From Saccharomycopsis phalli (lineage: Eukaryota > Ascomycota > Saccharomycetes > Ascoideales > Saccharomycopsidaceae): a stretch of 64,000 nt of DNA. Positions within the stretch are counted from its first letter, which is position 1. The number at the start of each line of letters is the position of its first letter. Shown here in pieces: positions 2,713 through 64,000 of this stretch. A program made the translations under genes and the position numbers. The stretch is from the NCBI GenBank assembly GCA_020342235.1, contig CP073216.1, positions 620,001 to 684,000 on the forward strand, given 5' to 3'. Below the pieces are notes generated by a model, which worked only from the letters and a program-made list of their open reading frames with translations, searched no databases and was not told the DNA's origin.

Positions 2713-2871
2713 GGTACCTATCTTGACTAACATACATCAACTAACTACCATCATTGATATCATGGTGTCATTCGACAAAGACATTACCTTATCATCCAGC
2801 CCGCCTCTTTCTTGTTACCAAGCGTAAAACACTTTGATTCTACTCGTCAGCACTAACTGTAGTTTTCTCTA

Positions 2872-3141
2872 GTTAGAGGGCTACTGAGTCATGTACCTGG
2901 ATTGGAGTGACTCAGTCAATGATCTAGGCCAAAGCTCCTTGCCAATTCTCCTTGTATCACGCTTGAACATCACCTTGGATGTATTTATTTCTACAGTCTT
3001 TACAACACTAGATGGTTTCCTTCCACAACTACATTGCGACACCACCTCGGTCGTACACCACCTTAGTCAGACGGCACAGTACAAATCTCCTCAGCAATCC
3101 CACTATAACTATATCCTTAAATAAATAATAATATTATTACA
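2872..3141 (+). mobile_element. SINE-like element, copy D (oldest looking)
   Basis: Starts GTTAGAGGGCTAC and ends with an ATAAATAATAATATTATTA tail, the same ends as the copy at 14672 and, inverted, at 49288. Inside, the ACAAATCTCC block, an AACTACATTGCGAC block and TATAACTATATCC near the tail align with the other copies, with more mismatches. No open frame. Target-site repeats are unclear, fitting an older insertion. It fills most of the gap between the minisatellite and the glycosidase gene. Confidence 0.6.
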
Positions 3142-13539: not shown

Positions 13540-14290
13540 CGTGTTTACCTGGAATATTTTTCACGCCTCAGCCTACATGCCTGCACGGGACGATACCTGT
13601 CAGAGTGAGTGTGGAAGAGTGTGGAAGAGTGTGGAAGAGTGTGCAAAGAGTGTGGAAAGAGTAGTAGATAGAGTAGTAGATAGAGTAGTAGATAGAGTAG
13701 TAGATAGAGCAGTAGATACAAGTGAGAGCAGTAGATATAAACTATAGGGCTGTATGTATATTTATTTCTATATGTAATAAAGATGAAAGAGAAGGCTGGA
13801 ATTCATTTACCGTCAGTTTGGTGCTTGGGAATTGGTCTAGCCAGATCCATTTACACAACACTACGTCCTTCTCATGACTGATCATTGTAAAGATCTCAAT
13901 TGCTCTCCTTGAAACTTGACGTACATACTACACATGTGCCGAATAATCATGGTCCTTCAGCAAGCAACCATGACAAATAATCAGGAAGGATAAGGAAAAG
14001 GAAAATAAGCAATCTGTAATTAGTATACAAGGGACGGGAGGTCCATTAAGTCGAGGAGCAAATTTATATATTATACATCTATTACGGTTGTAATTCGTGC
14101 ACTGTAACCAACACAACGCGTTATCGACTGATACTTTTGCCAACCAACCACCAGCACCAAATTAATGTGGTCCCGTAAGTTCGAGGTCCGTCAAAACTGA
14201 TCTTGTTTTGTCTAAACTTGCTTTTTGACCAAATCTCACAAAGGCAATGGACTTGGCTAGTCCATTCCCTCCGACTGAAAATGTGTCTTG
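13540..14290. repeat. Repeat-rich spacer upstream of the VIK1-like gene
   Basis: 13606-13650 holds copies of GTGTGGAAGA; 13660-13745 holds about six copies of AGTAGATAGAGT. From 13746 to 14290 I see AT-rich sequence without a convincing gene, RNA or repeat. Part of it (the first 200 bp) must serve as promoter for the minus-strand gene that starts at 13539. Confidence 0.6.
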
Positions 14291-14299
14291 TTTTATATA

Positions 14300-14395
14300 A
14301 ATAGCCAGACTATTGAATAGTCAAGCGAATATATTTTTACTCAGAACACCCGAGGCAGCATTATAAAACCCTTGGCATCCCATGACTGTTTACGG
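14300..14395 (-). mobile_element. LINE 3'-UTR fragment
   Basis: On the minus strand it reads AATGCTGCCTCGGGTGTTC then GAGTAAAAATATAT, which aligns with the 3' untranslated part of the LINE at 56037-57611 (AATGCTGCCTCAGGATGTTC then GAGTGAAAATATAT). Preceded in both by AAGGGTTTT. No coding part remains. An old truncated copy. Confidence 0.55.
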
Positions 14396-14479
14396 GCAAG
14401 ACTTTATGGAAGCAGTACGTGGTTAATGTGGTTGGTTATTGGTACCCGATAAGTCTGGCTGTCTTGGATGCAATTTGGG

Positions 14480-15425
14480 ATAGTACAGTAGACGTAAATT
14501 ATAGGGCAGTGGATATAAGTGAGAGCAGTAGATATAAAATAGAGTAGATTGATATACTGAGCAAGTGGTTATAAATTGATAGAGCAGTGGAGAGCAGTAG
14601 ATACTGAGCAAGTGGATATAGATTGATAGTAGATATCAATTGATAGACAGTAGGTATCAATTGATAGAGCAGTTAGGAGGGCTACCGTGGTAGTACCTTG
14701 GAGGGGTGGCTCAAGTCACTTAGGACATAGGAAATGCACATTACCCACCAATGCCCATTATTTTACATATCCACCAACTCTAGTCGAACGTCCATCTCAG
14801 TAGCAGAGTTTTCTTTTGACGACTACATAGCAGCACCGTCCTTGGTCGTAGAGGTAAAGTATAAATCTCCTCTGGGAGGCTGGTATAGCTATAGTCTTGT
14901 ATAAATAGTATTGTTATAATTGATAGAGTAGTGGATATATTAAACAAGTGGGTACAAATTATAGAGTGGATAGAGCAGTAGGTACAGGTACTCGAGCAGT
15001 AGAGATGTGTTGATAGAGCACTGTATATAAGTGAAAGCACTGTATATAAATTATAGAGTAGTGAGAGTGGATATAAATTATAGGACAGTGGATAAAGCAG
15101 TGGATCGAGCAGTCGATACAGGTACTCGAGCAGTAGAGATAAATTGATAGAGCACTGGATACACTGAGCAAGTGGATATAAATTATAGAGTGGAGAGCAG
15201 TAAATACAATTGATAGAGCAGTAGATATACTGAGCAAGTGGATATAAATTATAGAGTGGAGAGCAGTAATACTAAGCAAATGGATACTAACAAGCCAATA
15301 CAAGCAACCCGCTAGAGTGCAACCCGCTAGAGTGCAACCTCCAGAGTGCAACCTCCAGAGTACAACCTCCAGACTGCAACCTCCAGACTGCAACCTCCAG
15401 AGACCGAAACTGGCCAATTGGCCCT
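14480..15425. repeat. Long mixed minisatellite block
   Basis: Units around TATAAATTATAGAGTAGTGG, AATTGATAGAGCAG, GCAAGTGGATA and TACTCGAGCAGTAGA recur dozens of times with drift from 14480 to 15290, interrupted by a SINE-like insertion at 14672-14917. From 15300 to 15405 the unit changes to CAGAGTGCAACCTC / CAGACTGCAACCTC. It ends at the DED81 stop codon. No coding potential apart from repeat frames. Confidence 0.85.
14672..14917 (+). mobile_element. SINE-like element, copy C (complete, with target duplication)
   Basis: 246 bp, starting GTTAGGAGGGCTACCGTGG and ending TATAGCTATAGTCTTG then ATAAATAGTATTGTTAT. It is flanked by AATTGATAGAGCA (14659-14671) and AATTGATAGAGTA (14918-14930), a 13-bp duplication of one unit of the surrounding minisatellite. 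A weak box-B-like GGCTCAAGTC lies about 37 bp from the start. No frame. The tail matches the LINE tail at 56037. Confidence 0.7.
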
Positions 15426-15432
15426 CACCCAT

Positions 15433-17076
15433 CTATGGCTTGCACCGGCCACTGAACCGTGGGTACAACGAACAGTCTCTCACGGTAAAACGGTTGCACA
15501 ACCACGCCAAGATCCGCTCAGTTCCTAAACCATACCCACCGTGTGGACAGGTACCATACTTCCGCTGGTCGCTGAACCAGTAGTACGGCTCTGGGTTGAT
15601 GCCCTCGCGCTTGAACCCCTCAACCAACTCGGTCAAGTCGTCGATTCTCATGGACCCACCAGTGATCTCGCCCACGGTCGGCATCAAGACGTCAACCGAC
15701 TCGGTGACACGCGGGTCGTCGGCACACTTTTTCATGTAGAACGACTTGATCAGCACCGGGAAGCGGGTGAGCAAGATTGGCACTCCGATGGCGTCGGTCA
15801 TCTTGCGCTCGGCAGCTTCGGCAATGTCGTCGCCAAAGACAAATGGCTCGTCGTTCTCGTTCTTCACCCCGTTCTCGTTCAACCATTCAAGGGCATGCAC
15901 ATACTCCATGCGCTTAAACGGCAATTGTGGCGGAACAAAGTCCGGGTGCAACTCGCGGAGCACTTTTCCGGCAACCGGATGGTCCAAGGTGTACTGCACG
16001 GTCTTGACAATGACCCGCTCAATGTGGCTCAACAAGTCGTCAAACGTCAAGAACGCCAACTCGGCCTCAATGTGCGTGAACTCAGACAAGTGCCGACGCG
16101 TGTGCGACTTCTCGGCCCGGAACGATTCCTGGATACAGTACACGTCCCCCAACGATGGGAGACACGTCTCCAAGTACAATTGCGACGACTGGGTCAAGTA
16201 TGCCTCCTCACCGTAGTACTTGAGGTTGAACAACGTCAGTCCGCCCTCGACCTGGGTCTGGACCATGCACGGCGGCGTGACTTCGAGCAATCGCTCCTCC
16301 TCATACACCCGGCGGATTGCGCCCAAAAACGCGGCCCGCACCTTCATTACACCGGAAATGGTGTCGCCACGCAACGTGAGGTGGCGCTGGTCAAGCAACA
16401 ACGATGGGTCTGCGTTTTCTTGCACCTTGTTGGAGAAGGCATCGTCGCCTGATGGAGCAAGCCCAACAACCTCGTAGTAGTCGGCAACCAACTCCACGCC
16501 TTGTGGCGCAGACTGACCCTCCGGCACCTTCTCGACGGTACCGTACACCGCCACGGTCGACTCGCGGGTCAAGCCAATGGTCTGCTGCGCGAGTGCCAAG
16601 TCGTCGCGCAACACCACCTGGCACTTTTCATAGCCGTCGCGCAACACCAAAAACACCCACTTCTTTTGGAACCGCGCGCGGTGGATCCACCCGTGCACAA
16701 GCACTCGCAGGCCAATGTGGTTTGTGACCTCTGAGAGCTTGATTTTCTTTGCCTCAGGCAACGACTCGTCCCGCGTGATACTGATGCTCAACGCCGCGGT
16801 CTTCTTGGCCAAGTCGGCCTCGGCCTTTGCCTTCTGCTGCTCCTGCAACACCTTCTCCTTCTCGGCCTTTTTCTTCAACGTGGCCGCACCCTTTTTCGCC
16901 TTTTTCAACGCACTGGCCGTGATGTCCACGTACTCGCCGTTTGTGTCCACCAACACTTTGGCGGACTCGTCCTGGAACACAGCATATGCGCTCGTCTTGA
17001 ACGGCTTCTCCTTGGTGCCGTCACGCGACCCGTCGTCAATCCCTTGCAATTCGCTCACGTAGTATGTAACTGACAT
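15433..17076 (-). CDS. DED81: Cytosolic asparaginyl-tRNA synthetase
   Basis: 547 residues; charges tRNA-Asn. A eukaryote-specific N-terminal region with a lysine-rich helix (residues 60-105) precedes the OB anticodon-binding domain (VLVHGWIHRARFQKKWVFLVLRDG) and the class II core: motif 2 around SFRAEKSHTRRHLSEFTHIEAE and motif 3 GGYGLGTERILAW near the C-terminus. The DPRVTESVDVLMP and GEITGGSMR segments are typical of AsnRS. The frame reaches 17112, but MSVTYYVSEL at 17076 is the conserved start. It is divergent from the prolyl enzyme, as YHR019C and YHR020W are in S. cerevisiae. Length is close to the yeast enzyme (554). Confidence 0.96.
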   Translation of the reverse strand: MSVTYYVSELQGIDDGSRDGTKEKPFKTSAYAVFQDESAKVLVDTNGEYVDITASALKKAKKGAATLKKKAEKEKVLQEQQKAKAEADLAKKTAALSISITRDESLPEAKKIKLSEVTNHIGLRVLVHGWIHRARFQKKWVFLVLRDGYEKCQVVLRDDLALAQQTIGLTRESTVAVYGTVEKVPEGQSAPQGVELVADYYEVVGLAPSGDDAFSNKVQENADPSLLLDQRHLTLRGDTISGVMKVRAAFLGAIRRVYEEERLLEVTPPCMVQTQVEGGLTLFNLKYYGEEAYLTQSSQLYLETCLPSLGDVYCIQESFRAEKSHTRRHLSEFTHIEAELAFLTFDDLLSHIERVIVKTVQYTLDHPVAGKVLRELHPDFVPPQLPFKRMEYVHALEWLNENGVKNENDEPFVFGDDIAEAAERKMTDAIGVPILLTRFPVLIKSFYMKKCADDPRVTESVDVLMPTVGEITGGSMRIDDLTELVEGFKREGINPEPYYWFSDQRKYGTCPHGGYGLGTERILAWLCNRFTVRDCSLYPRFSGRCKP

Positions 17077-17197
17077 GGTTGTGCAAAGTGTTGAGTCACT
17101 GGAAAATCTCAATAGTCGCCGGCGTTACCCGCACGCACCCTGGAAAATTTGCCTTGAAAAAATCCAGGCAATCCATCCCCAGTTTTGCAAAACAAAA
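17077..17197. promoter_or_regulatory. Bidirectional promoter of two aminoacyl-tRNA synthetase genes
   Basis: 121 bp separate the ATG codons of DED81 and the prolyl-tRNA synthetase gene. It contains GGAAAATTTGCC and TTGAAAAAAT A/T tracts but no Gcn4 TGACTC site. The same gene pair shares a promoter in S. cerevisiae, so co-regulation appears to be old. Confidence 0.7.
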
Positions 17198-19216
17198 ATG
17201 TCTGTTGAAGCTTCCCTAGCCTCGTTGTCGCTAGTGCAGTCTGTGCCAGACGGCGCATTGGCATCCAAGGCGCTAGTGTTCAAGGAGAAAAAATCAGCCG
17301 CGCCAGTCGTGCTCATCGCCTTGTCCTCCACCAAGACCGACTCCAAGGTCGTGGCAAAGTCCGTCGCCGGCAAGGAGGTGCGCTTGGCAACCTCCGAGTT
17401 TGTCGAGGAGCACTTTGGTGTCGGCGCCAAGCAGTTTTCCGTGGCTAACTTGCATGCCTCCCAGGCTGGCAAGGTCAAAATCGTGTTGGACTCCAACATC
17501 GCCGCGTCCAAGGACGCGCTCTTGCTCTTGTCCACTGAGAGCAGCAAGTTCACCATTACGGCCGGCAAGTTGTTGGAATTCCTTGCCAGCACCGGCATTG
17601 AGACCGTGCCTGTGGACTTCAGCGCACCAGCAGCCCCAGAGAAGAAGGAGCAAAAGCCAAAGAAACAAGCGACCAGCGCGAAGTTGGACGACGCCAAGCT
17701 CATTGGCATCACCGTGGACAAGTTCAAGGACTTCCCAGGGTGGTACTCACAAGTATTGACCAAGGGCGAGATGCTCGACTACTATGACGTGTCTGGATGC
17801 TACATCTTGCGGCCGGCGTCGTACGCGGTCTGGGAGCAGATCCAGCTGTTCTTTGACAAGAAAATCAAGTCGATTGGCGTGCAGAACTCGTACTTCCCGA
17901 TGTTTGTCTCGTCACGGGTGTTGGAGAAGGAGAAGGACCACATTGAGGGGTTTGCCCCAGAGGTCGCGTGGGTCACCCGTGCTGGCAGCTCGGAGTTGGA
18001 CCAGCCAATTGCCATCAGACCAACGTCTGAGACCGTGATGTACCCATACTTTGCCAAGTGGATCCGCTCGCACCGCGACTTGCCATTGAAGTTGAACCAG
18101 TGGAACTCCGTTGTCCGTTGGGAGTTCAAGCACCCGCAGCCATTTCTCAGAACCAGAGAGTTCTTGTGGCAGGAGGGCCATACGGCACACTTGACCTTTG
18201 AGGAATCTGAGGCCGAGGTCATGGAGATCTTGGACTACTACAGACAGGTCTACGAGGACTTGTTGGCCGTGCCAGTGGTCAAGGGCAAAAAGACCGAGAA
18301 GGAAAAGTTTGCGGGCGGATACTACACCACAACCTGCGAGGGATACATTCCGGCCACTGGTCGGGGTATCCAGGGAGCCACGTCGCACAACTTGGGCCAG
18401 AAGTTCTCGGAGATGTTTGAGATCATGGTCGAGAACCCGGCTGGGAAGGACTTGCCCCGCTTGAAAGTGTGGCAGAACTCCTGGGGATTGTCTACCCGAG
18501 TCATTGGTGTCATGGTCATGGTCCATTCGGACAACAAGGGCTTGGTGATCCCACCACGGGTGTCGCAGTTCCAGGCGGTGGTCATTCCCGTGGGAATCAC
18601 CAACAAGACCTCCAAAGAAGTGGAGCAGAAGGTGTATGATGGAGCCAAGGCCGTCGAATCCCGATTGCGCCAGGCTGATGTGCGAGTGACCTCTGACTTC
18701 CGGGACAATTACACGTCGGGATGGAAGTTTTCCGACTGGGAGTTGAAGGGGTTGCCTGTGCGGATCGAGGTTGGTCCAAAGGACTTGGACAAGAACTCGG
18801 TGACTGTGGTGCGGAGAAACGACAACAAGAAGTACACTGTGTCGTTGGACAGCTTGGAAACAGAGATCCCTGCGATCTTGGAGGAGATGCAAAAGGACTT
18901 GTTTTTGGCTGCCAAGCACAAGTTTGACACCCACCGCAAGGTCATTGAGAACTGGGACGACTTTGTGCCAGCGTTGAACGACAAGAACGTCATCTTGGCG
19001 CCATGGTGTGGGGTCATGGAGTGTGAGGACGACATCAAGGATGCCAGTGCGCAAAAGGCCGAGGAGCAAATGGGCGAGGTGGACGAAAAGGCTCCAAGTA
19101 TGGGGGCCAAGAGTTTGTGCATTCCGTTTGAGCAACCTACGTTGAAGGAGGGTACCAAGTGTATCAAGTGTGGCAAGGTGGCTATCAATTACACCATGTT
19201 TGGTAGAAGTTATTAG
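17198..19216 (+). CDS. Cytosolic prolyl-tRNA synthetase (YHR020W orthologue)
   Basis: 672 residues; charges tRNA-Pro. The first 175 residues form a YbaK/ProX-like inserted domain, then a KKQATSAK linker and the eukaryote-type ProRS core: FPGWYSQVLTKGEMLDYYDV, RPTSETVMYPYF (motif 2 region), WQEGHTAH, the anticodon-binding domain and the C-terminal zinc-type end KCIKCGKVAINYTMFGRSY. The frame opens at 17075, overlapping the DED81 start; MSVEASLAS at 17198 is chosen since the upstream part is not conserved and lies in the promoter. S. cerevisiae YHR020W has 688 residues. Confidence 0.95.
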   Translation: MSVEASLASLSLVQSVPDGALASKALVFKEKKSAAPVVLIALSSTKTDSKVVAKSVAGKEVRLATSEFVEEHFGVGAKQFSVANLHASQAGKVKIVLDSNIAASKDALLLLSTESSKFTITAGKLLEFLASTGIETVPVDFSAPAAPEKKEQKPKKQATSAKLDDAKLIGITVDKFKDFPGWYSQVLTKGEMLDYYDVSGCYILRPASYAVWEQIQLFFDKKIKSIGVQNSYFPMFVSSRVLEKEKDHIEGFAPEVAWVTRAGSSELDQPIAIRPTSETVMYPYFAKWIRSHRDLPLKLNQWNSVVRWEFKHPQPFLRTREFLWQEGHTAHLTFEESEAEVMEILDYYRQVYEDLLAVPVVKGKKTEKEKFAGGYYTTTCEGYIPATGRGIQGATSHNLGQKFSEMFEIMVENPAGKDLPRLKVWQNSWGLSTRVIGVMVMVHSDNKGLVIPPRVSQFQAVVIPVGITNKTSKEVEQKVYDGAKAVESRLRQADVRVTSDFRDNYTSGWKFSDWELKGLPVRIEVGPKDLDKNSVTVVRRNDNKKYTVSLDSLETEIPAILEEMQKDLFLAAKHKFDTHRKVIENWDDFVPALNDKNVILAPWCGVMECEDDIKDASAQKAEEQMGEVDEKAPSMGAKSLCIPFEQPTLKEGTKCIKCGKVAINYTMFGRSY

Positions 19217-22985: not shown

Positions 22986-25238
22986 CTAGGCCCGCTGCAA
23001 CTGACTCTCCTTGACGATGGTCAACTCTTCCAAGCGCGACTTCAAGTTCGGCAAGTTATTCAACGACTTGTCAATTTCCAATTTCTCCTCGCTTAACTTC
23101 AACCGCTTCCGATAGTTAAACTTCTTAAAAATATAGTTGGTCTTTCCGTCAAACTGCAACAAGTACTTGTGGAACTTCCAAATCGACGTCCGGTGTGCAA
23201 CTGAGAGCACAGATATCTTCAAATTCTTCGTAGCATACGTGTACATTTTGCTCTCCATCTCCGGTGTCACCTGCGACGTGCACTCGTCCAACACCGCAAA
23301 TTTAGGCTTGTGGTAGTACAACCGCGCCATCGCCAACTTCTGCTGCGATCCCAACGACAATTCCTGGCCCCAGTCTTTGATCAAGTGCAACACCGCCACC
23401 ATCAGATCAAACGTGTTGCCTTCGTCGTCACTGTACTCAGAGTCAGACTCCTCGTCAGACTCCCCTTGGTTTATAAGCGAGGCAAACGTCAATGCCCCTG
23501 CATCCGTCGACAGATTGTCCTTCAATAAATAGTCCAACTCCAAGATCGTCAAGATCTTAATAAGCTCCTTGTATGTATTCTTGGACGTGCTCGACGACGC
23601 AACCTCCACTTCAAAATCATGGTATGCCTTTGGATAAATAATCTGTTCAATCAAATTCGTCTTCCCTTTGATCAAGTATGGCCGTTGTGGCAAATAAAAG
23701 ATCGAGTTGAACTCAGGAATCGTCAACTCACCAGACTGGATCTGCCATAAACCACTCAAGATTCGAAACAAGGATGACTTACCCGATCCATTTGGACCCA
23801 AAATCAACAAGTTCTCCCCATGGCGGATCGTGAAGTTCAATGGCTTGCACAACAACTGGCCCTGAGGTGTCACTAATGGGACATCTTGGAATCTGATAAG
23901 ATCGTTATTATGAATCACCACCGGAGACTCGCTAGCATCAACCAATGTCTTCTCATCGTCACTCCCCTCACTGCGATCTGATAATTCTGTCAATGCATTT
24001 TTGAATTCAATGACCCGCTTCGCAGTACCAACAAGTTGGTCCAAGTTTTTCTTGGAAGACAACAAATCACCCAAAGAATTGGAGGCGTTTAACAACAAAC
24101 TTCTATTCTGAATAAAATCCAGAGTGATTTTGCTTTGACTTATCGCCTGTGCACTGTGCAGAAGCTCATTCTTAAACACTGGGAACGCACACAAGAGTAG
24201 CCCAAAGGCACCCCATGTATACTTAATCAAAAACGTCTTGACAAAGTTATACACTGCAAATTGTCTGTAGCTTCTCCGCAAAAACCGTTCCATAATGAAA
24301 TAATAACAATCTGCGTCGTATTGCTCTCTTACCCAACTTCTAAGCAATGCAATCTGTTCAAAATGGTTGATAATGTTGGAATGGACAAGCCTGAAATCAG
24401 ACTCATGTTGTGCATAACTGTTGGAGATCTTGGAGAATTTGGGTGAGGCAAGTTTCACCAAAGCAGTAGAAACATTGATGATCAAACCAAAAAACAAAGT
24501 GGCTTCAGTCATTGATCCGTCGTCAAAACTGAAGAGCTTGAATGACGAAACTGCTAAATTTAAAAAGGGATTCAAGAGAAGTGATGGAATGGAAGATAAG
24601 TTATTTGCCAATTCAAAAATGTCAACGGTAATTCTTTGATGTGGATCACTAATGTCATTTGAAAAGTGGTTTATCTTATAGAATGTATTGGTATTGTCAG
24701 TCAGACTAGTTGTAGATGTAGACAAGTAGCTGTTGTTCAAATCCCTCGAGAGATTGAGCACCAAAACATTGGACAATGTGTTAGTGAAGTATGAAGACAA
24801 TGACGACAATATGGAGATCGGTACTCCGATGACCAACCATTGGGCGGTTAGCTTTGCAAACTTTTTGTAATTTTTCGAGAACAAGCTCGAGACCAATTTG
24901 GAATCAATGCTAATGACTCTCAAATCAAGATAAATCTTGGTGATGAGAACAGCAATCTGAAAAACAAGAATTTTAATAATCTTACCGTCTGAGACTCGGT
25001 AGAGCAAATCAATTAAACTTTTAACTCTCTTAGGATTTGTCTTCTGTGTTGGTGTTTCTTCAATGGTTGCTACTTGCTTGCTCAGTTTCCGCTTCTGGAA
25101 CAACTTCTTGAAGCGTCCTTTCAAGTTGAAATTAATAGACGATCCAAACATAGTAAGCAACAAATAAATATATACCATTTTAAGTAAATAGCTTCTATTC
25201 TTCGAATAGAACGTGCTAATTACCTCTAATGAGCCCAT
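22986..25238 (-). CDS. Peroxisomal-type ABC half-transporter (ABCD family, PXA1/PXA2-like)
   Basis: About 750 residues: a membrane domain (1-400, several hydrophobic segments; FRLVHSNIINHFEQIALLRS is the ABCD EAA-like region) and a nucleotide-binding domain with Walker A GPNGSGKSS, YLPQRPYLIKG, Walker B KFAVLDECTS and H-loop SVAHRTS. The signature loop reads LSLGSQQKL instead of LSGGE, a degenerate form. Pxa1 and Pxa2 pair in the peroxisomal membrane to import long-chain acyl-CoA for beta-oxidation, so this could be the subunit with the weaker ATP site. An acidic insert (EESDSEYSDDE) lies in the NBD. The frame opens on TTG at 25244; ATG 25238 is chosen. PXA1 versus PXA2 not decided. Confidence 0.8.
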   Translation of the reverse strand: MGSLEVISTFYSKNRSYLLKMVYIYLLLTMFGSSINFNLKGRFKKLFQKRKLSKQVATIEETPTQKTNPKRVKSLIDLLYRVSDGKIIKILVFQIAVLITKIYLDLRVISIDSKLVSSLFSKNYKKFAKLTAQWLVIGVPISILSSLSSYFTNTLSNVLVLNLSRDLNNSYLSTSTTSLTDNTNTFYKINHFSNDISDPHQRITVDIFELANNLSSIPSLLLNPFLNLAVSSFKLFSFDDGSMTEATLFFGLIINVSTALVKLASPKFSKISNSYAQHESDFRLVHSNIINHFEQIALLRSWVREQYDADCYYFIMERFLRRSYRQFAVYNFVKTFLIKYTWGAFGLLLCAFPVFKNELLHSAQAISQSKITLDFIQNRSLLLNASNSLGDLLSSKKNLDQLVGTAKRVIEFKNALTELSDRSEGSDDEKTLVDASESPVVIHNNDLIRFQDVPLVTPQGQLLCKPLNFTIRHGENLLILGPNGSGKSSLFRILSGLWQIQSGELTIPEFNSIFYLPQRPYLIKGKTNLIEQIIYPKAYHDFEVEVASSSTSKNTYKELIKILTILELDYLLKDNLSTDAGALTFASLINQGESDEESDSEYSDDEGNTFDLMVAVLHLIKDWGQELSLGSQQKLAMARLYYHKPKFAVLDECTSQVTPEMESKMYTYATKNLKISVLSVAHRTSIWKFHKYLLQFDGKTNYIFKKFNYRKRLKLSEEKLEIDKSLNNLPNLKSRLEELTIVKESQLQRA

Positions 25239-25617
25239 GTTCAATGTAGTGATGAATTTCCAAAGTGCAGATTCCCGCCTTTATATGCCGGGGATGCGGG
25301 CTTGTGGAGATGTCATATTCCGTACAGTTGCACATGCAAATCAATGGGCAATTTACCCTCCTCCGGATAAGAAGACTTACCCGACTGCATACTTTTGACC
25401 TTGATGATGATGTATGAAAAAGTATCACACGTGACTGAATTGAGTGTCTGGTCCTATACCTTCCAACAAAGTGCAGTTTATTTCTCAGCCACCAACCTGC
25501 AAGTTGGATACGATTAATAATTGGATAAACTTTTGAAGTGGTTCTTGTCTAGCTCAGTTCTGTGGTGTGCATAGTGATACGTAATTATTTCAGACCCAAG
25601 ACTGATAACTAGTCATA
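25239..25617. promoter_or_regulatory. Divergent promoter with CACGTGAC site
   Basis: Separates the ABC transporter and IML1 starts. CACGTGAC at 25428-25435 matches the binding site of the Cbf1 bHLH factor. The same eight-base form occurs in the HOM6 promoter (31761) and, inverted, upstream of HAM1 (33893). Confidence 0.45.
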
Positions 25618-28600
25618 ATGAGTCCGTTCCAGTCTCTTCTCTTTACTGATGAGACTGAATTACGCAATGTTACCTCGCAGAATCAAAATAATTCACAGTT
25701 TGAGTTGCCTTCGCTGGGTTTAGATGGGTCAATTATTGACGAACGTACAGATGGAGACAATGGTTCTAATGCTCGGGTATCTTTCCAGGAAACAGGGTGT
25801 AAGGTGCCCGGAAACAGTAAACATGATCTAGTAGTGACATTTCATGATTCTGCCACTTCCAAGGAAAATGTTTTAGTGGATATAACTTCCATTCCTGGAG
25901 CACAAGAGGGAAGCTATGCTATGCTATATAAGAAGCCTCTAGTGAATGGGGAGAGAAAACCGCAGGCAGGCAAGCAAAAGAAGTTTAAGGAGAAGCACAG
26001 ATTGATTTTTCAATTAAAGCCCATGAGTAGTAGCTATTGCAAGAAATTAAACCACAAATTTCAAGTATCGATTATGAATAATACCTTGCCCACCTACTTG
26101 GGGTTGAACCGCGCAAATCAGGTGAAGATCAAAATAGTTGAGAAGGAAAGGTACGAGCTTGACTTGATTGAGATTCTAATAAAGGATATTTACTTATCAA
26201 GAGGTGATATGTGGTTCCTTTCCAATTATATTGTGAAAAACTTCTCGTACTGTTATGTACAGCAGAACATCATGGCTTTCAATTTGATTAATTTGATGAT
26301 TTCCAAATTGTATATTGGGGGCTCAAATGTGTACTCTGGTGTGATTAGCAAAAATACAAAGATAATATTCCGGTCAAAATCAGCCAAGTTGACATTCTTG
26401 ATCCAGCTTTCAAGCGACATGTTTCATTTTGACTTCACTGGAGGGATCATATATAACAAGATTATCAATTCGTTGTTCCCAGCAATATTCCAGCACTGGT
26501 TGAACATGGGCAGCAACCATCTAATTACAATTATATTGTTCACATCTGTTGTCCCGGACGACGATAAGCAGCTAGTGGACTGTAAATTGGGTGAGCCATT
26601 TGAAAACGCTCAAGACTACTACCGTATTGTGGTCGATCAGATCAACATCAACCACTGGTCGAAAATCATGATTAACTTGCGGTATGAAATTCTCAAGTTC
26701 AAGGAAGACATTAACCTAGTTGACCTGCAAATGCTACCTGCGGTAAAGGGTAATTTATTACAGGCATTGAACTTATCAACGGTATTGATGCTCAACAATA
26801 TCAACAACGTGACTTCGTTGCGCCATACGCAGAACCATTTCATCATGATCACGCCCAACTCAGGGCTCTTTGACATAGATTTTAGTTTATTAGACAAGAT
26901 CACCAGCAAGATTTTGAAGCAGGATATCTCAGTGGATTTAATCTGTCTAGGTCCAAAACCTATCCATCATTCCCCGATGTTCCGCTACCGGACCTTGAGC
27001 AATAAGCTAACATATCGGTTTCCCACATGGTTTAATTGCTTCTTTTGGATAAACAACAAGTTTGTTAATAGCTTTGTCAACTTAATTAAAAACCCAGAAG
27101 CTGTTCCTGCTGCAGATCTGAGAGTCTATATGCCGGATTTTGATGATCTCAAGGGCTTGAGATACGCGCTTCTTCCCAAAAGTAAAATATACCTGTTGCA
27201 AATGATGGGGGTAATGGAATATGAAATGAGTGGCTTGCAGATCCCGTACTTATCGAAGGACCTTGACTACAACAAAAACCACAACTTTAAAGTAGCAAAG
27301 CAGTATTTCTATGATTATGACGAAGGTGCGTTTACAACCTCGTACATTAATGTTACGGAAGAGCAAATCGACAACCCAGATGACGGCCAATTTTCTATTT
27401 CACAGGAGGAAGAACCAGTAAAGAAGCCTAGAGCTGTTTCATTGGGAGAAAAGCCTACCAATGAGAACCCATTGGGCATCACTATTCCTGAGGCAAATTA
27501 CAGCAGAAGATCTCTCCAGCCGAAGCAGAGTTTAGTATTTGGAAACGACTCGGGGCTTGTGAAGCTTGAAAGGCCAGATGAAACTTTGGGTCATTTACGG
27601 ACCCCAGCACAGTCTGTGGTACTTATAGATGACGTGAGTGGAGTGACCAATAAGGAAAAAGGATCAGCATATACCTCCTTGAGGGAGAACCAAAAGTCTT
27701 ATACGAATGGCGATACTTCTTCAGTTGCCTCGAATGAAAATGGGCGCAAGTCTGTATCCGATTCAAGCAGCAAGCATACTGCTCACTCAGATGCAAAGAC
27801 AGACATTAGTAGGTTGTCAGTTAGGAACGCCACTTTTAGAAGCATATCTGAAAAGATCATGGGTGTTCTTCATCACCCTGATAACCGGGGATTTGATGGT
27901 AATCCTGTAATATCTAGAGAATCCTCTATTTATTCTCGGAAAGCAAGGACAAAGGACACAGCAACTACAGGCCATGGTAAAATGACACGGACCAACTCAC
28001 TGGAAAGCAGCATAAACAGAGTAAATGGAACTGGTCTGGGGAGATCTTACTTGGATTCAAGATCGGGAAATGTCACTAGATTCGAGCTAAAAAACGTAAT
28101 ACATAAGAACAAGGCAGGCCCATTCAGTTTACAACAAAAGCCTGCAGTGTTAGGGAAGCTAGCTCCAAAGGATGAAAAGGAATACTTGGGTATTTTACTC
28201 AAGAACCCGATGAAATTATCTGAGATTGATCTCGACTTCACCAAGATCAATTTTGGTAAGTGGGGTAATATATATCCCCATGATGAAAACGGTAAATCAG
28301 TGAAGAATTTTATCAGTTGGAAATCTTTGATATCACCTGCTTCTTTACCTATATCTGTTCAAAATGACCTCTTGGCTCTGAATATCATAAAGACACCAAT
28401 CGATCAACCAAAGGGAAAGGTGGCTAAATACACAGATAATACCTATGATGTGTTCCCCAACAGTCAGTTTAAGTCCTTGATTGATAGCAAGGATCTATTC
28501 AAGGAGATGGTGTATGTGAGATTGATGATGGGGTTTCAGATTGTCGATGCCTCTAACAGGTTGGCGAAACGGGATTCCGAGCAGAATGGTACGTACCAGA

Positions 28601-30231
28601 AGAGTATGGTATTAATTGACAGCTACTTGCCTTTGGAGTTTGACTGGAAGGAATTGCCATCTGATAAGTTTAATCCAGTGATATACATGATGGTAAAGGG
28701 CGAGCTACACCGTATCTTCTTGGACTTTTACGGTAATATCCGAGTGAGAATTTATAAAGATGAATCTCTTGAGCAGAGCAACTTTGTGGTTGAAAGAAAG
28801 ACGATAAACATAGACAAGAACACATTGAACCTCGTAGTCGAGGAGCATCAGAAGGTCAGCTACAAACCATTTGTGCGAACACGGTACGATTCTAGTTATA
28901 GACAAGTGGAGATTGACTCGGTCAGTCTAGAGCTGGTGAAGTACAACTGGAGTAAGATCGACTATTATTTATCTGGCAATTTTGATGAAAGCCACTCGCA
29001 GTTTGGGTATCATGAAACTGACAAGATAAATGTTTTCCGCATCAGGTTGGTGATTATGGGTCGCAAAACCGACAACGAAATCCATGAAAGTGAGGGCGAA
29101 CGAAACAGAAATGCGTCGCGTAAATTGACTGATGATAAGGAGCGGCATTTTGAAAATATAAAGAGCTTTCTAAGTCTTATTTTGAGAGGGGAGTTTACTG
29201 GGTTTGAGACCAAGGATGAGGATAGCAAAGATACTTTGGGCAAGGCGGGTGTTAACAATGCTGTCAAGTCGATGCTACTTGATATAGATCCAAACAAAAA
29301 GTCACACAAGCAAGAGGTGTTGAAGATATATTACGATGATCCATCTAGCAATGTGTACAATCGAACTGGGCAACTGTTTGACGCAAACTGCTATCATATT
29401 CAATTGCAATGGTTGACCAATACCCCCAAGTTGATTGATGATCTCATAACGAAATGGAGTCATGCTTGTGAGAGATACTCCTTGAAAATTGTCGAAACCC
29501 CGATTTATGAGATTTATAAGACGCCTACCATGAATCCGTTCCATTCTTTTATCAGCATTAAAATGTGTTACTCTCCATGGGACCATGAGCTGCTTTACTT
29601 TGAGGATAGTTCCATGTGCCGGTACTACTATCACACGTATCTTTTACAGAATAGCGATTTCATCTTGGATGATGCCAACAGAAAGTTTTTCTCTGCTGAT
29701 GAGATTACTGATGAAGAAGACCCTCTGAACAATCAGCCAGAGTTTAAGTACGCGCAATATGTACATACCTCTGGAGCATATATGGCCGAGTTGAGGGATG
29801 ACGGCCAGTTTTTCTTGGTACCAAACAATATCTATATTGCCCGTATGAATTTGCGGTACCATGCCTTGAAGAAGAACCAATCACACATTACGACACGAAG
29901 CGGCCACAATGACTTGTACAATACCGATACTAATCTTTATACGTTGGAAAAGGATTACTTTGCTGATTATTTGGCCTATCAGACTGTCGCTGATGATAAC
30001 GATGATGGGGACTACTTTTTTGACTCGCAAACGATTATGATCAAGTTCCTTGACAAGTGTGACAACGAGGACTATTTGAAGTTTTTGTTTAACAAGGCTA
30101 AATCGGAGTGGGAACCAAGGCCTGAGATTAGTAGGGCAAGTACGGACTTGGAGACTAAAGCTGAGGACTGCAGCTCGTCTGTATTGAAGTCTAATTTGCA
30201 TGAACTTAATGTTAAATATGGTAAAAAGTAA
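25618..30231 (+). CDS. IML1: Iml1/Sea1 (DEPDC5 orthologue), GAP subunit of SEACIT/GATOR1
   Basis: 1537 residues, near the S. cerevisiae length (1584). The N-terminal longin-like part contains VVTFHDSATSKENVLVDI; RLIFQLKPMSSSYCKKLNHKFQVSI and RYELDLIEILIKDIYLSRGDMW lead into the SABA region FRSKSAKLTFLIQLSSDMFHFD. A low-complexity linker (residues 590-800) precedes the C-terminal region with the DEP domain (VRLMMGFQIVDASNRLAKRD) and an end domain. Iml1 with Npr2 and Npr3 stimulates GTP hydrolysis by Gtr1 to switch off TORC1 under amino-acid limitation at the vacuole. Single exon; start at the first ATG. It is the second TORC1 negative regulator in the window, with TSC1 at 50656. Confidence 0.88.
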   Translation: MSPFQSLLFTDETELRNVTSQNQNNSQFELPSLGLDGSIIDERTDGDNGSNARVSFQETGCKVPGNSKHDLVVTFHDSATSKENVLVDITSIPGAQEGSYAMLYKKPLVNGERKPQAGKQKKFKEKHRLIFQLKPMSSSYCKKLNHKFQVSIMNNTLPTYLGLNRANQVKIKIVEKERYELDLIEILIKDIYLSRGDMWFLSNYIVKNFSYCYVQQNIMAFNLINLMISKLYIGGSNVYSGVISKNTKIIFRSKSAKLTFLIQLSSDMFHFDFTGGIIYNKIINSLFPAIFQHWLNMGSNHLITIILFTSVVPDDDKQLVDCKLGEPFENAQDYYRIVVDQININHWSKIMINLRYEILKFKEDINLVDLQMLPAVKGNLLQALNLSTVLMLNNINNVTSLRHTQNHFIMITPNSGLFDIDFSLLDKITSKILKQDISVDLICLGPKPIHHSPMFRYRTLSNKLTYRFPTWFNCFFWINNKFVNSFVNLIKNPEAVPAADLRVYMPDFDDLKGLRYALLPKSKIYLLQMMGVMEYEMSGLQIPYLSKDLDYNKNHNFKVAKQYFYDYDEGAFTTSYINVTEEQIDNPDDGQFSISQEEEPVKKPRAVSLGEKPTNENPLGITIPEANYSRRSLQPKQSLVFGNDSGLVKLERPDETLGHLRTPAQSVVLIDDVSGVTNKEKGSAYTSLRENQKSYTNGDTSSVASNENGRKSVSDSSSKHTAHSDAKTDISRLSVRNATFRSISEKIMGVLHHPDNRGFDGNPVISRESSIYSRKARTKDTATTGHGKMTRTNSLESSINRVNGTGLGRSYLDSRSGNVTRFELKNVIHKNKAGPFSLQQKPAVLGKLAPKDEKEYLGILLKNPMKLSEIDLDFTKINFGKWGNIYPHDENGKSVKNFISWKSLISPASLPISVQNDLLALNIIKTPIDQPKGKVAKYTDNTYDVFPNSQFKSLIDSKDLFKEMVYVRLMMGFQIVDASNRLAKRDSEQNGTYQKSMVLIDSYLPLEFDWKELPSDKFNPVIYMMVKGELHRIFLDFYGNIRVRIYKDESLEQSNFVVERKTINIDKNTLNLVVEEHQKVSYKPFVRTRYDSSYRQVEIDSVSLELVKYNWSKIDYYLSGNFDESHSQFGYHETDKINVFRIRLVIMGRKTDNEIHESEGERNRNASRKLTDDKERHFENIKSFLSLILRGEFTGFETKDEDSKDTLGKAGVNNAVKSMLLDIDPNKKSHKQEVLKIYYDDPSSNVYNRTGQLFDANCYHIQLQWLTNTPKLIDDLITKWSHACERYSLKIVETPIYEIYKTPTMNPFHSFISIKMCYSPWDHELLYFEDSSMCRYYYHTYLLQNSDFILDDANRKFFSADEITDEEDPLNNQPEFKYAQYVHTSGAYMAELRDDGQFFLVPNNIYIARMNLRYHALKKNQSHITTRSGHNDLYNTDTNLYTLEKDYFADYLAYQTVADDNDDGDYFFDSQTIMIKFLDKCDNEDYLKFLFNKAKSEWEPRPEISRASTDLETKAEDCSSSVLKSNLHELNVKYGKK

Positions 30232-30600: not shown

Positions 30601-30601
30601 A

Positions 30602-31711: not shown

Positions 31712-31760
31712 ACTGTAGTGATGAACAATCCAAATGACTGATGTAGCTATGTAGTCAGTG

Positions 31761-33848: not shown

Positions 33849-35579
33849 TGTATAATGCCTTTTGGTGATATCAGGTTGAAAGATACGGTACAGTCACGTG
33901 GGATTATCTTGGGTATCTGTATGTTTGGATGTCATTGTAGATTGGATGTTTAGTACTAGGCATCAGTGAAGGAGATTGATATTTCGCCGTCTTATAAGAA
34001 CAGCGCCGCTAGAAGGAGCCTCAGGATCTCAAAAATGTTTGACTTATTTAAACATTGGTTTCAGAAATGATTCTAAAGCCACGGGTCTCGCCATGATGAT
34101 CACCTGTTTGGTTGCACATGGTGCTTGTATATTATAACGAAAATGTATCTGGCCTTTTACCGTTATATATTAAGTAAGCTGCCATTGAGAAGATTACTAT
34201 TTGACAATGTTTGCCTCGAGCTGAAAAATATCTTTGGTGCATCTTGATAATGGAAAAGTTACGACATAATAAAATAATATCATATCCAACAAGTGGACGT
34301 CGCTACTAATTGTCATTCTGAAAATAGCTATGCACACTGTCAATTGAATCTAGTTACAGGAAAAGTGGATTGCTAGTGACAGTCTTTAGAGTCTTGACCC
34401 TGGTACGTAATATGCATTAAATAAATGCCTGCACCACTATATCGACACACATGTCCCATTGAGTCTCCAAAAATTCTCATAATATATTACAATGGTAAAT
34501 ACCTATGCATACATTATTATAATACACATTGAGGTTGATCTATTGTCCAGTCAACGTCTGTGATATTACAATTGCATTGACAGTTATTATTAGAAGACAC
34601 TAGTCACGCTACAACTTGACGGTTAATAATATTTTCGGTGAGACACAGTATTGGTTCTTTACATTATTATATGCGATTCAATAAGCGACCCTCTTCGCCA
34701 TAGTGCTTATTACCAGAATTAATATTTGTGATTGAGTATAATTTTAAAAGATCTTCATTGCCTTGTCACCGCCCGTGAAATTTTCAACTCTAGGCTTTTA
34801 TAGAGCCCATCTATAACCATCAATAATAAATAAACGGGGAGCCAGTCTCTGTAATTTAAATCTGGGCAATTGGACGTCAAATATCCAGTCTGTATGGGGA
34901 TTAATGTACCAGGTAGAAAGGGCCAATTTGCCGAGGAAGCGTAATCAAAATAAAGCTTCATTTGAGCAATCCATGGGTACTGGTGGGTTAGATTCTTGAA
35001 ATTGCATCTGAGACCTTCATAATGTCCCGACCTGCACTAGCCCTGCCGTTTTGGTAGTCTTGTGCAATAAGAGAATTTAATAATAATATTCTGAGACAAG
35101 GAAGCGCAATCTTTTATGAAACAATTCGTGATAGTGCCATGACGAATTTACATGGTATGTTACACATATTAGATTTAACAAAAGCAATCCTACAGCGCCA
35201 GCAAAAAGCTTAAGCTAGTCGCTAGTATACCTTAAACTAGCCAAATGTTAGTTACAAATTACCGAAACAAATATACACTGCATGGGGACCTTGGCTTAGA
35301 CTCTCCAAACTCTGAAATAATGCAAGTACCTGGGAGGTACATTAAGTACCTGAAAGCTACATCACGTACCTGAGAACAACACCAAGTATTTCTGTTTCCA
35401 TAAGTATGCCATGACTGAGCTGGTTGGAGATTGAATTACTACGGTTGTTACAAGGGTCTCTCAACAAGGAAACTTGCAACACATGCTATGCGCTGGAACA
35501 AATGTGTAGTTGTACAAAAAACATTCTAAAATTCCTATTCTTGCAACATTTAGCCACAAACCAAAATTTGGTCACAACA
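33849..35579. other. Long gene-poor AT-rich region left of the tRNA gene
   Basis: 1.7 kb without a credible gene. 33893-33900 holds GTCACGTG for HAM1. 33970-34020 (GAGATTGATATTTCGCCGTC then CGCCGCTAGAAGG) aligns with part of the SINE-like family in minus orientation, a fragment. 35318-35395 has three 22-nt degenerate copies around AGTACCTGAAAGCTAC. The rest shows nothing I can name. Confidence 0.5.
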
Positions 35580-41202: not shown

Positions 41203-42011
41203 TGGACGGTGCATAAGGTGATAATATATTATGAGTATGAATCTGGGTGTAAGGCCAATGGTTGTAAGTTGATGTATGGCATTGCCAAGTTTATGTGTTG
41301 TAGCTGGGTGATGATCCCCAAAGTCATTGAGAGTTTAGTATGTGTTGTGATTAAGTGTATGGTATAGAGGTGTGTATGGTATAGAGGTGTGTATGGGTGG
41401 TTGGTGATTTAGGGTTAAAGACTTGGCGTTTGGTTTGTACTGAGTTGGTGAGTGTAGATGGATGAATCAGGGTGTGAGTGTAGATGATTCAGAGTGTAAT
41501 TGTACATGATTCAGAGTGTGATTGTACATGATTCAGAGTGTGAGTGTACATGACTTAGAGTGTGATTCATTCCTGACAAGTACAAGTACTAGCCGAAGCT
41601 GCCTGCTACAGATATTCTACCACCACATGGCGGTGCGCCTTTGTCGTAAATAACAAAGGATTAATCGCCTTGGTATCATAGTATATACAAATCCGCAAAT
41701 AAATAATATCATCAATATACATGATAAATGTACAACTGCCATGAGTATTGTTTGACCAAGACTTGGGTGTGTACCACCTGAGTGGTTCCGACTCCACAAA
41801 TTTTTTCGTGGGAAATATTTTTCAAATCTACAGCATACGCCAGGTAGCAAGACATCTTAACGAAATATACCAGCGAGCCGCGAAAGTGGATCCACATATA
41901 TATTTCAAGGGTATCTTACAGCCTGATTTTTTTCCAGGGGCGACGTGAATCTCGGGTGAGAGCGACGCATTTTTGTCAACTTTTTTATTTTTTCAGCATT
42001 TGATTTGGGCA
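41203..42011. repeat. Spacer with tandem units and promoter of NRP1
   Basis: 41355-41395 has GTGTATGGTATAGAG twice; 41462-41570 has about six copies of GATTCAGAGTGTGATTGTACAT-type units. A SINE-like fragment covers 41590-41725. 41730-42011 is the presumed NRP1 promoter, with GCGAAA near 41880 and a T-rich tract ending TTTTTTCAG at 41997. Confidence 0.7.
41590..41725 (+). mobile_element. SINE-like element, 5'-truncated copy I
   Basis: CACATGGCGGTGCGCC in the first third aligns with CTACATGGCCGTGCTTC of copy A (minus strand), and the end AGTATATACAAATCC followed by AAATAAATAATATCATCA aligns with the family tail AGTATAGCTGTAGTC then ATAAATATTATTATTA. The 5' half is missing. Confidence 0.45.
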
Positions 42012-48812: not shown

Positions 48813-49048
48813 GCATGTGTATAGAATATGGATACATGGAATGAGAAGGATGTGGATGTAGAAATGTGGATGTAGAGGAAATATGAATGAGAATATGTGT
48901 GAGTTATGTAGAGGAAATATGGATGTAGAGGAATGAAATTTGCAGAGAAATTGTAGAAATGAATATTCTACAATGAATGTCTCATGCAGCCTTGAGACTC
49001 TCAGTACCAGTGGTCATGTGACAAACTACGACCTTAATAACCTCAACT
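48813..49048. repeat. Minisatellite behind PMT4
   Basis: 48835-48965 carries about eight units of 12-20 nt around GTGGATGTAGAGGAAATATG. The rest up to the SINE-like copy is AT-rich. No gene. Confidence 0.75.
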
Positions 49049-49288
49049 ATAATAATAATATTTATCCAAGACTACAGCTATACTAGGCTCCCAGAGGAGA
49101 TTTATACTTTACCGTCTACAACGAAGCACGGCCATGTAGTCGTCGAAAGAAAACCCTCCAACAGAGATACAAACTTTCCACTAGAGCTTTTAAATATACA
49201 AGGCAATGGGCATTGGAGGGCAATGAACTTTTACCTAAATTAATGGTAACTTGAACCACCCCCAGGGTACTAGCACGGTAGTCCTAAC
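49049..49288 (-). mobile_element. SINE-like element, copy A (near full length)
   Basis: On the minus strand: GTTAGGACTACCGTGC at the 5' end, GGTTCAAGTTACC (box-B-like), GCCCTCCAATGCCCATTG, GGGTTTTCTTTCGACGACTAC, GTAAAGTATAAATCTCC, AGTATAGCTGTAGTC and the tail ATAAATATTATTATTAT. Close to copy C throughout. No coding frame. Flanking target repeats are not evident. Confidence 0.65.
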
Positions 49289-49466
49289 GTGCTGTAACGA
49301 AAAGGGAAGCTACCAGTCCAGCACCGACGAATAGAATCCTATACGATTTTTAAGCTTCGCCTTATTTGAAGACGCGGGCTTGATTAGCAGTGGTATTCCT
49401 TCCTGTACAATCTACATTACTCAAACTATACATCCATGACATTATCATATGGCCTACACCAAACCA

Positions 49467-56036: not shown

Positions 56037-57611
56037 ATAATAATAATAATATTTATTTTTGTATTTAGCTATATATTGTCTCCGGCAATACGGTGATTCG
56101 ACAGATATATTTTCACTCAGGAACATCCTGAGGCAGCATTGCTGTTGAAGAAAACCCTTTGTCAACCCTCATTTGGTTGCTTGGGATTAAAAACTTCAGT
56201 GGGGGCAGTTATATTGTTGGTGCTTGGTGCTTGTATGGATTGTGTAAGAAGCCTGGTCACTCTTGTTGTCGAATGTGACCGCTGAATCTCATCATGTGTT
56301 GGAGGAATCATATTCCAACACGTTCTGGTAGAACTCAAGGAGTTTGTGGACTGATTTTTGGTCGGCAAACACTTTTCCAAGCGTATTGCGTATGCCATGA
56401 GTGGAATCTAGTATGTCATCAATGCGCGATAGAATTCGAGCTTCTAGGAGCTCTGGGCATCGTAGGTCATGTATGATGGAGGGGGAGTGAGTCCCACATC
56501 GTTTGCACTTTGGGTCATCATTGCCAAATAATTTGAGCAACGATCCGTCTGTGAGGCTCTTTCCGCTGAGTAGTTGTGATGCCAAACTGAGGATTGCCTT
56601 GGGGCCTGCAAGTGCTTCCGTGAGGAGGAGCTTGGTTTTGTCTCGGTGCACTTTGAAAGGAGTGGTGCTGATTTTGCGTGCGTTCCTATAGTGGTTTGGG
56701 AATGATTCGCTGGTTGAGGTGATCATTGCTTGCCACTCTTTGGTTGCTGCGTCTGAGGCTATTTTCTTGAGCATCTGGATGCGGGTCCGTCTTGGATCTT
56801 GCATCGGTGGCGGGTCGTCCTCGAGTCGTTGTTCCTCTAGTGCATAATCCGCGCGTTGTTCAAGTAATCGAGCGGCTGCGTCAAACGTTCTGATATCTGG
56901 ATTGTGGGGGGCTGTTGCCTGTAACATGTCCTGGATAAGAGGGCGCTTTGGAATTATGATTCTCGTGCTTCCATTGATCGTGGTAGTTTGGAACAAACTT
57001 GAGCGGACTGGGTTTTGGCGTGATGTATTCATGAACCATCTCATAGATTTCATTATTGCCAAGGACTTGAGTAGGATCGTTGGTGGTGGAATACCACTTT
57101 CGATATAGATGATCGGGGTGGACGTGGGTCTGAGGAGGCCTAGCGCCAGTCGTAGGATTGAGTTGAATATCACACTGACCTGACCCCATTGGGTTTTTGT
57201 CATGCTGTTATAGAACACCTCGAGTCCATACGATATGATGGGGACTGCGCACGTTTTGAACAATATTATCGTGGTACGTCCCGTGGTTCCTCGTGTCATT
57301 CGGCTTAAGTACCTTATTTGTTCAGCAGTACGGCGCATCTTGGACAATGTTTGTTTTAGATGGCTCCTGAAGCTGAGTCTTGAATCAAGGGTAATGCCTA
57401 ATAACTTGACCTCGTTTGTTTCCTCCTTTCGTCCTCCGTTCGGAAGTTGGAGGCTAGATTCACAGTTCGGTAACCGTCTTCGATTCGGGAAGAATCGTAT
57501 GTATTGTAGTTTCGGGCCATAGTCAAAGCTTGTGAAATTCTCTTGACCCCATTGATGGCATTCCTGTAAGCATCGTTGAAGTGTATGCTCAATGTCGCCT
57601 CGGGATCCCGT
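56037..57611 (-). mobile_element. 5'-truncated LINE (non-LTR retrotransposon)
   Basis: 1575 bp flanked by the 13-bp duplication AATAGCGTATAGT (56024-56036, 57612-57624). On the minus strand the order is: reverse-transcriptase 3' coding part (57611-56292), a 250-bp untranslated region, and a TATTATTATTATTAT tail (56051-56037). The UTR contains a perfect hairpin CTCAGGATGTTCCTGAG (about 56126-56110) and ends TATAGCTA then ATAAATATTATTA, the same as the SINE-like family. The 5' break at the duplication is typical of abortive target-primed reverse transcription. Clade not resolved; no LTRs. Confidence 0.8.
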
Positions 57612-63259: not shown

Positions 63260-63553
63260 GTCGGGAGAATATCTTGCAGAGACGAGTGAAGTATTTGTAG
63301 TAGTAAATCATGTATGACTATGGAAATATTGACTGATTTAGTGTGGTGTAGGATGAAATGATGAGGTGCGGTACGGTGTAATTGGGATAACAAAGTGTAG
63401 GTAAAACTAGGTACCAGCTCTAGGTACAGCTTTAGGTACTTTAAGTTAAACTCTAGGTACAACTTTAAGTAAAACTCTAGGTAACTTTAAGTAAAACTCT
63501 AGGTACAACTTTAAGTAAAACAACTTTAAAGTAGAATAGAAAATCAACAATTC
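63260..63553. repeat. Minisatellite behind BAT1
   Basis: 63405-63535 carries about six units of 17-22 nt based on AACTCTAGGTACAACTTTAAGTA. The first 140 bp hold the presumed 3' UTR. Confidence 0.8.
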
Positions 63554-63790
63554 AATAATAATATATATTCATCTAAATCTATACTGGGCTCCCAGAGAGA
63601 TTTCTACTTTGCCGTCTACGACTCAGGATCGCGCCGCTACGTAGTCAGAAGAAAACTCTCCAGCAGAAATGAAAAGCTTCCCATTAGTGTTGGAAATGTG
63701 GAGAAATGTGCATTAGAGGAGCATTTAGCTTTCGCCTAGGTCATGGTGAGAACCAACCCCGACCCGGGTACACCAGCAACTCAATAGTCA
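63554..63790 (-). mobile_element. SINE-like element, copy B (near full length)
   Basis: On the minus strand the 5' part has GTACCCGGGTCGGGGTTGG and CTCCTCTAATGCACATT, aligned to copy A; then GAGAGTTTTCTTCTGACTACG, GTAGAAATCTCTCTGGGAGC, AGTATAGATTTAGATG and the tail AATATATATTATTATTG. Differences from copies A and C are spread along the length. 63791-64000 shows nothing further. Confidence 0.6.
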
Positions 63791-64000
63791 CATGTACATT
63801 TGGTGAAAAATCCGCTCTAAATGGCGATTCATACAATGGCTATAAACACGTCCATATTAATTCACATGGTTCGTTTATACAGTTGTGTGATTGGTATCCT
63901 TCCAGTATCAGTATAGTGTCTATGTATGGCTAAAGACGCAAGCTGCATCCAGTAAAAGAGTATCCAGTGGATATAGTACAGGTAGAGTATTGTAATGAAG

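Follow-up and report, generated by a model that had tools for sequence, protein, structure and literature searches.

Short dispersed repeats sharing their 3' end with a LINE-like element in a budding yeast, probably of the CUG-Ser clade

The repeat at 14672-14917 raises the question of how it was copied: is it a SINE that relies on a 3' end taken from a partner LINE, a 5'-truncated copy of a longer element, or a sequence spread by other means? We analyzed the window, by which we mean the whole stretch of DNA of 64,000 nt, in which a first-pass annotation had proposed a SINE-like family mobilized by a LINE. The features that we recognized are collected in Table 1.

Table 1. Repeat copies, candidate target-site duplications, and LINE-like sequences in the window
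Feature	Position	Strand	Basis	Remarks
c1, long form	2770..3141	+	pairwise alignment, blastn, profile	core 2872-3141; upstream part common to c3
c2	14672..14917	+	alignment, blastn, profile	begins at GTTAG; within tandem array region
c3, long form	49046..49411	-	alignment, blastn, profile	core 49049-49288; upstream part common to c1
c4	63551..63792	-	alignment, blastn, profile, extension	5' end uncertain by ~15-20 nt
c5, 3' part only	41576..41716	+	profile search	~141 nt; adjoins tandem array
c6, doubtful fragment	33970..34011	-	profile search	chance level
c2 candidate target-site duplication, 5' side	14659..14673	+		AATTGATAGAGCAGT; array sequence, ambiguous
c2 candidate target-site duplication, 3' side	14918..14932	+		AATTGATAGAGTAGT, one mismatch; array sequence, ambiguous
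LINE-like element	56037..57611	-	ORF list, sequence, tail-word match	5'-truncated at 57611; (TAT)n tail; 3' end at 56037
LINE-like element open frame	56292..57611	-	ORF list	439 residues within longer stop-to-stop frame
Second, decayed piece of LINE 3' UTR	14288..14441	-	profile (E = 5.8e-5); shuffle comparison (0/1000)	without (TAT)n tail

Copies of the repeat in the window

At least four homologous copies of about 240 to 270 bp had been annotated, and blastn within the window bore this out. c2 (14672) aligned with c3 (49049) at 77% identity over 246 columns (E = 4.6e-46), c3 with c4 (63554) at 72% over 217 columns (E = 1.5e-20), and c1 (2872) with c3 at 75% over 69 columns (E = 5e-8). These four copies of ~240 to 270 nt are found two per strand. 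The four-copy alignment described earlier, for which strands were left unstated, holds when c3 and c4 are read from the minus strand and falls apart when all copies are read on the plus strand. Pairwise identities among the four ranged from 60 to 77%, and judged by these values the copies are old or fast-changing. The repeats are apparently non-coding.

A profile of the four copies, searched against the 64-kb window before c5 joined the model, matched 41615-41713 (E = 1e-7), so that the fragment noted near 41590 is a real fifth copy. The fragment noted at 33970 fared differently. It scored 8.2 bits (E = 0.027) in the four-copy search, and with c5 added to the model it scored 5.4 bits against a best score of 5.2 bits in 10 shuffled windows, which is chance level. 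We dropped 32904-32949 as a further copy, its profile match being weak (E = 3.3). The analysis below is based on five usable copies from one 64-kb window.

A LINE-like element and the shared 3' end

The annotation had also placed a LINE at 56037-57611, ending in the tail of the copies. Both the stretch, which lies on the minus strand, and its tail are there. Its identity as a LINE is based on protein motifs, LLGITLDSRLSFRSH and CX2CX8HX4C, which we take to be the thumb and C terminus of I/Tad/jockey-type LINEs and not of L1; we call it LINE-like, as no library returned a match. A Pfam search of the frame at E values up to 1 gave no reverse transcriptase and only zf-FPG_IleRS (E = 0.08) on a Cys-rich stretch. 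A search against the PDB gave only repeat-protein and chance matches, and one against a viral contig collection gave one pattern match and no confirmed relative. An AlphaFold model of the frame alone (pLDDT 36) was not used. By eye, the element is flanked on both sides by ACTATACGCTATT, which is array sequence, and the longest repeat that our script found at its flanks did not abut the junctions. Because the window holds a second piece of LINE 3' UTR, short LINE 3' ends do occur in it. The end of this piece differs from that of the LINE-like element in having GACTATTCAATAGTC, a possible hairpin.

The last ~37 nt of the copies read TATAGCTA, nine bases, and ATAAATATTATTATTAT, in register with the 3' end of the LINE-like element. 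With up to three mismatches, the tail word ATAAATATTATTATTAT has six matches in the window against 0.09 expected; the four copies account for four of them, and two overlapping ones fall on the LINE. When we aligned the last 60 nt of each copy with the last 60 nt of the LINE, the score was reached by 0, 0, 0, 10, and 20 of 2,000 shuffles for c1 to c5, and the tails of c1 and c2 run alongside the LINE tail ungapped across 36 to 37 nt. The claim that the copies end as the LINE ends was thus upheld. The 45 nt that precede the AT-rich tail matched the LINE above shuffle level in none of the copies (907, 172, 174, 525, and 96 of 2,000 shuffles for c1 to c5), so the shared 3' end rests mainly on the AT-rich tail and its register. 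The motif TATAGCTNTAG, which had been pointed out near the 3' end, proved weak when taken alone. With up to one mismatch it has eight matches in the window against 1.9 expected; three of these lie outside every copy, and another two fall within a copy but on its other strand.

Could the copies simply be the 3' UTR of the window LINE, cut to varying lengths? This had been named as the outcome that would overturn the SINE proposal. Their 5' length does vary, but without their last 45 nt the bodies of all five copies matched the LINE 3' UTR no better than shuffles (126 to 544 of 1,000), and we rejected this origin. A hint to the contrary comes from c3, which with its tail aligned with the LINE over 125 columns at 62% identity (score 38.0; best of 60 shuffles, 32.0), and from the score of c2 against the second LINE piece at 14288-14441, which was reached by 27 of 1,000 shuffles (112 to 966 for the other four copies). 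A shared, in-register 3' end on dissimilar bodies fits insertion by LINE-type, target-primed reverse transcription.

Two observations concern the same region. (A/G)TTG stands within a few bases after the tail in c1, c2, c3, and c4, at offsets of 17 to 20 from the tail word, and is absent from c5 and the LINE; it may mark where the element truly ends on its 3' side, or else reflect a preference for certain targets. A conserved 3' stem-loop looked plausible by eye, and we set it aside since six 3' pieces of 80 to 84 nt folded no better than shuffles (z from -1.43 to +1.26).

5' ends and the origin of the copies

The copies had been proposed to start together at GTTAG. This start did not stand as the end of the element. 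Similarity between c1 and c3 continues for ~100 to 120 nt upstream of GTTAG with a score of 41.5, which 0 of 1,500 shuffles reached with flanks of 150 or 300 nt and 1 of 1,500 with flanks of 520 nt. When the 150 nt upstream of c1 were compared with 426 window pieces (213 per strand), c3 was the best match outside c1's own neighborhood; the next, an unrelated 300-nt piece of the window, scored 36.0. Because they are alike upstream of GTTAG, c1 is at least 372 nt long and c3 at least 366 nt.

We also extended the alignments upstream from an anchor at core position ~13; the shuffles used 120 nt and the real flanks were 190 to 230 nt, both including ~13 nt of core. The c1-c3 extension peaked at -115/-135 and scored 33.0, where the best of 60 shuffles scored 12.5. 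Between c1 and c2 the extension stopped at GTTAG (-14/-15); for each of the three pairings of c4 it ended within 7 nt and did not exceed shuffles. The c2-c3 extension, with the same unequal lengths of 120 nt shuffled and 190 to 230 nt real, peaked at -45/-47 with a score of 14.5, the best of 60 shuffles having scored 10.0; c2, too, may thus reach beyond GTTAG. A profile that includes c5 aligned c4 from 63808, 16 nt past its assigned boundary. Relative to GTTAG, c3 therefore starts at about -123, c1 at about -102, c2 at about 0, c4 between +9 and -16, and c5 at about +94. Judged from these alignments, the spread is the pattern of 5' truncation, and five copies would also allow two size classes.

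We lean, if only modestly, toward a longer source element from which the copies derive by 5' truncation, and not toward a SINE with a fixed ~245-nt body. That source would be a second LINE lineage not seen in the window or a non-autonomous element that depends on a LINE. The copies would be old insertions made by LINE-type machinery through target-primed reverse transcription. The source element would have measured at least ~370 nt, and its last ~40 nt would have been recognized by the same reverse transcriptase as that of the LINE-like element or by a sister enzyme. If the source were a second LINE, the copies would carry its own 3' UTR, of which the window would show only 5'-truncated ends. 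The RNA would have been copied from its 3' tail at the nicked target, and the copying would often have halted early, leaving 5'-truncated copies that later decayed.

This reading starts from what the five copies have in common, which is a 3' end with an AT-rich tail in register with the LINE, and from homology that ends at differing 5' points, the combination that marks 5'-truncated LINE ends. The uneven 5' ends argue against a true SINE, and LINE-type machinery probably copied the family. Against truncation stands a tblastn search of the window LINE frame (E up to 10) against the five copies, which gave no match: no coding remnant of a second LINE was seen in them, and no longer copy was found running into LINE reverse transcriptase coding sequence. 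The one shuffle that equaled the c1-c3 upstream score at 520 nt and the 36.0 scored by an unrelated piece also weigh against it. Moreover, the starts of c2 and c4 lie no more than roughly 20 nt apart, a closeness that random truncation would be unlikely to give.

A start near the same point is what a true SINE would give, namely a family derived from an RNA gene, transcribed by Pol III, ~245 or ~370 nt long, and borrowing a LINE 3' end. We regard such an origin as unlikely, though several features fit it: the shared 3' end on unrelated bodies, the close starts of c2 and c4, the end of c1-c2 similarity at GTTAG, and a recognizable length of no more than 372 nt in every copy. The long c1 and c3, which run past the proposed start, would have to be a second form or to carry an upstream piece that was copied along.

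The SINE reading also asks for an RNA-gene head, and a search for a tRNA, 5S, or 7SL origin of the 5' part found no match in Rfam. At gathering scores across the window, no tRNA, 5S, 7SL/SRP, or other family fell in c1 to c5, and searches of c1, c2, and c3 at E values up to 10 returned nothing except snoZ101, antisense to c2 (E = 3.1). ARAGORN found one tRNA in the window, away from the copies. The combined Pol III A and B box scores of c1 to c4 were reached by 173, 88, 115, and 173 of 200 shuffles, in a weak test where the real tRNA-Leu of the window scored barely better than the copies (19 against 17 to 18). By eye, c3 has GGTTCAAGTTA, which agrees at 9 of 11 positions with what we take to be the B-box word; for the B box alone, the tRNA-Leu reaches 8 of 11 and the copies up to 9.

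Target-site duplications provided one good case among the five copies, the 15-nt duplication of c2, which has one mismatch, abuts both ends of the copy, and lies in array sequence (P = 0.037 against nearby pieces). By gapped score, the same duplication gave P = 0.002 against intergenic sequence and P = 0.098 against nearby pieces. A weak duplication accompanied c3 when its long start was used (P = 0.03 to 0.06, gapped score), and none was found at c1 with either start, at c4, or at c5 (P ≥ 0.09). Of the original proposal of a LINE-mobilized SINE, the dispersed family and the shared 3' end are supported; the fixed 5' start, the RNA-gene head, and duplications beyond one good case are not.

The copies might instead have spread without transposition, if a functional non-coding RNA or a regulatory repeat was duplicated long ago and its AT-rich end came to look like a LINE tail by convergence. 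The 3' half of the copies aligns better than the 5' half, c1 and c3 have upstream DNA in common as duplicated segments would, and the agreement with the LINE is concentrated in an AT-rich tail, the preceding 45 nt being at shuffle level. We nevertheless consider such duplication quite improbable, because no Rfam family was matched, the 3' pieces lacked excess folding, and the copies use both strands in no fixed relation to the neighboring frames of the ORF lists.

An origin as solo LTRs, or as short elements of the DNA or Helitron type, is very improbable; these, and MITEs, were dismissed by eye for want of matching ends. A length of 240 to 370 nt would suit an LTR, and by eye TATAAAT and AATAAA stand ~50 nt apart as in some LTRs. 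Against this, the 5' ends vary, the 3' end is that of the LINE-like element, and inspection of the flanks by eye showed neither TG...CA nor inverted termini and no duplications of a fixed short length.

Surroundings, host, and known elements

The window has many intergenic minisatellite arrays, with 66 TRF rows in all, including 2371-2709, 14501-14673, 41462-41565, 55942-56028, and 63407-63521. In a comparison with random intergenic placements that was devised after seeing the data, used hand-made gene and array tables, and counted eight elements including the doubtful c6, four of the eight lay within 30 nt of an array (0.07 at random) and seven within 120 nt (0.25 at random). A preference of the machinery for such targets could explain this closeness.

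The host had been taken for a budding yeast, and its codon usage fits. In eight host genes, TTG dominates the leucine-box codons and CTG is rare, with 0 to 11 per gene. The genes for ProRS and Pmt4 together have four CTG codons, one of them outside the aligned part. One CTG of Pmt4 faces serine in both displayed homologues, one CTG faces proline in both displayed homologues, and the CTG at position 262 of ProRS faces R, N, and D in three displayed homologues. These sites lie within 46470-48812 and 17063-19216. Because no CTG site faces a hydrophobic residue, CTG is probably read as serine, and from these three informative sites, which are few, the host is probably a CUG-Ser yeast.

In trypanosomes, RIME/ingi exemplifies non-autonomous elements derived from a LINE, which are short and non-coding and are mobilized through an end in common with it. 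The repeats of the window are likewise short and non-coding and have an end in common with a LINE. Such elements also keep the 5' end of their LINE, and the LINE of the window has no 5' end to compare.

Among fungi, AfuSINE2-1a of Aspergillus fumigatus has a 3' end resembling that of the LINE I-1_AF (Tad clade), a tRNA-related 5' region, and a repeated ACT triplet (PMC5063351). The window repeats are similar in being short fungal repeats with a 3' end like that of a LINE in the same genome and in having a repeated triplet, TAT in place of ACT; they differ in that no RNA-gene head was found and their 5' end is not fixed.

The budding-yeast LINEs in the literature that we compared are the Zorro elements and Ylli, as far as the accessible portions of the papers describe them. 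Zorro3 of Candida albicans is an L1-superfamily element located in poly(A) (PMC7175516, PMC1965478). Ylli of Yarrowia lipolytica is represented in strain CLIB89 by 104 fragments, each 30 bp to 1 kb long, and is associated with poly(A) tracts (PMC5014426). The LINE of the window resembles the Zorro LINEs in being a LINE of a CUG-Ser yeast, since its host is probably of that clade, and Ylli in belonging to a budding-yeast LINE family, Ylli having many 5'-truncated copies. Unlike Zorro3, with its L1 affinity and poly(A), and Ylli, with its association with poly(A) tracts, it ends in (TAT)n. Its protein motifs, as we take them, differ from those of L1.

The passages of the open-access literature that we consulted describe no SINE family from a budding yeast. 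PMC8677757 does count LINE and SINE labels, assigned automatically, in Candida genomes, and it reports from such labels that LINE, SINE, and LTR repeats generally occur only rarely in Candida lncRNAs. The available text of PMC5014426 only speculates on a SINE-like spread of tDNAs in Yarrowia. PMC7175516 uses neither "SINE" nor "SINEs", and PMC5499181 does not use "SINE" as a separate word.

A (TAT)n LINE accompanied by short elements that end as it does would provide a yeast system for studying template choice by a LINE reverse transcriptase, and a true SINE would, by the open-access literature, be unusual for the subphylum. It is doubtful that the window holds the strongest form of this, a SINE or other LINE parasite with its partner LINE in a CUG-Ser yeast, moved by (TAT)n machinery that is not L1/Zorro and that prefers insertion beside minisatellites.

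The base composition of the window is uneven. The G+C content is 0.40 to 0.42 in the 4-kb blocks at 24001-36000 and 0.45 to 0.54 elsewhere in the window, and third-position G+C is 0.49 to 0.55 in three genes wholly or partly within 24001-36000 against 0.69 to 0.77 in the other genes counted. Exact-match searches with repeat segments of 23 and 20 nt gave nothing in bacterial, archaeal, and viral contig collections, a result that says little.
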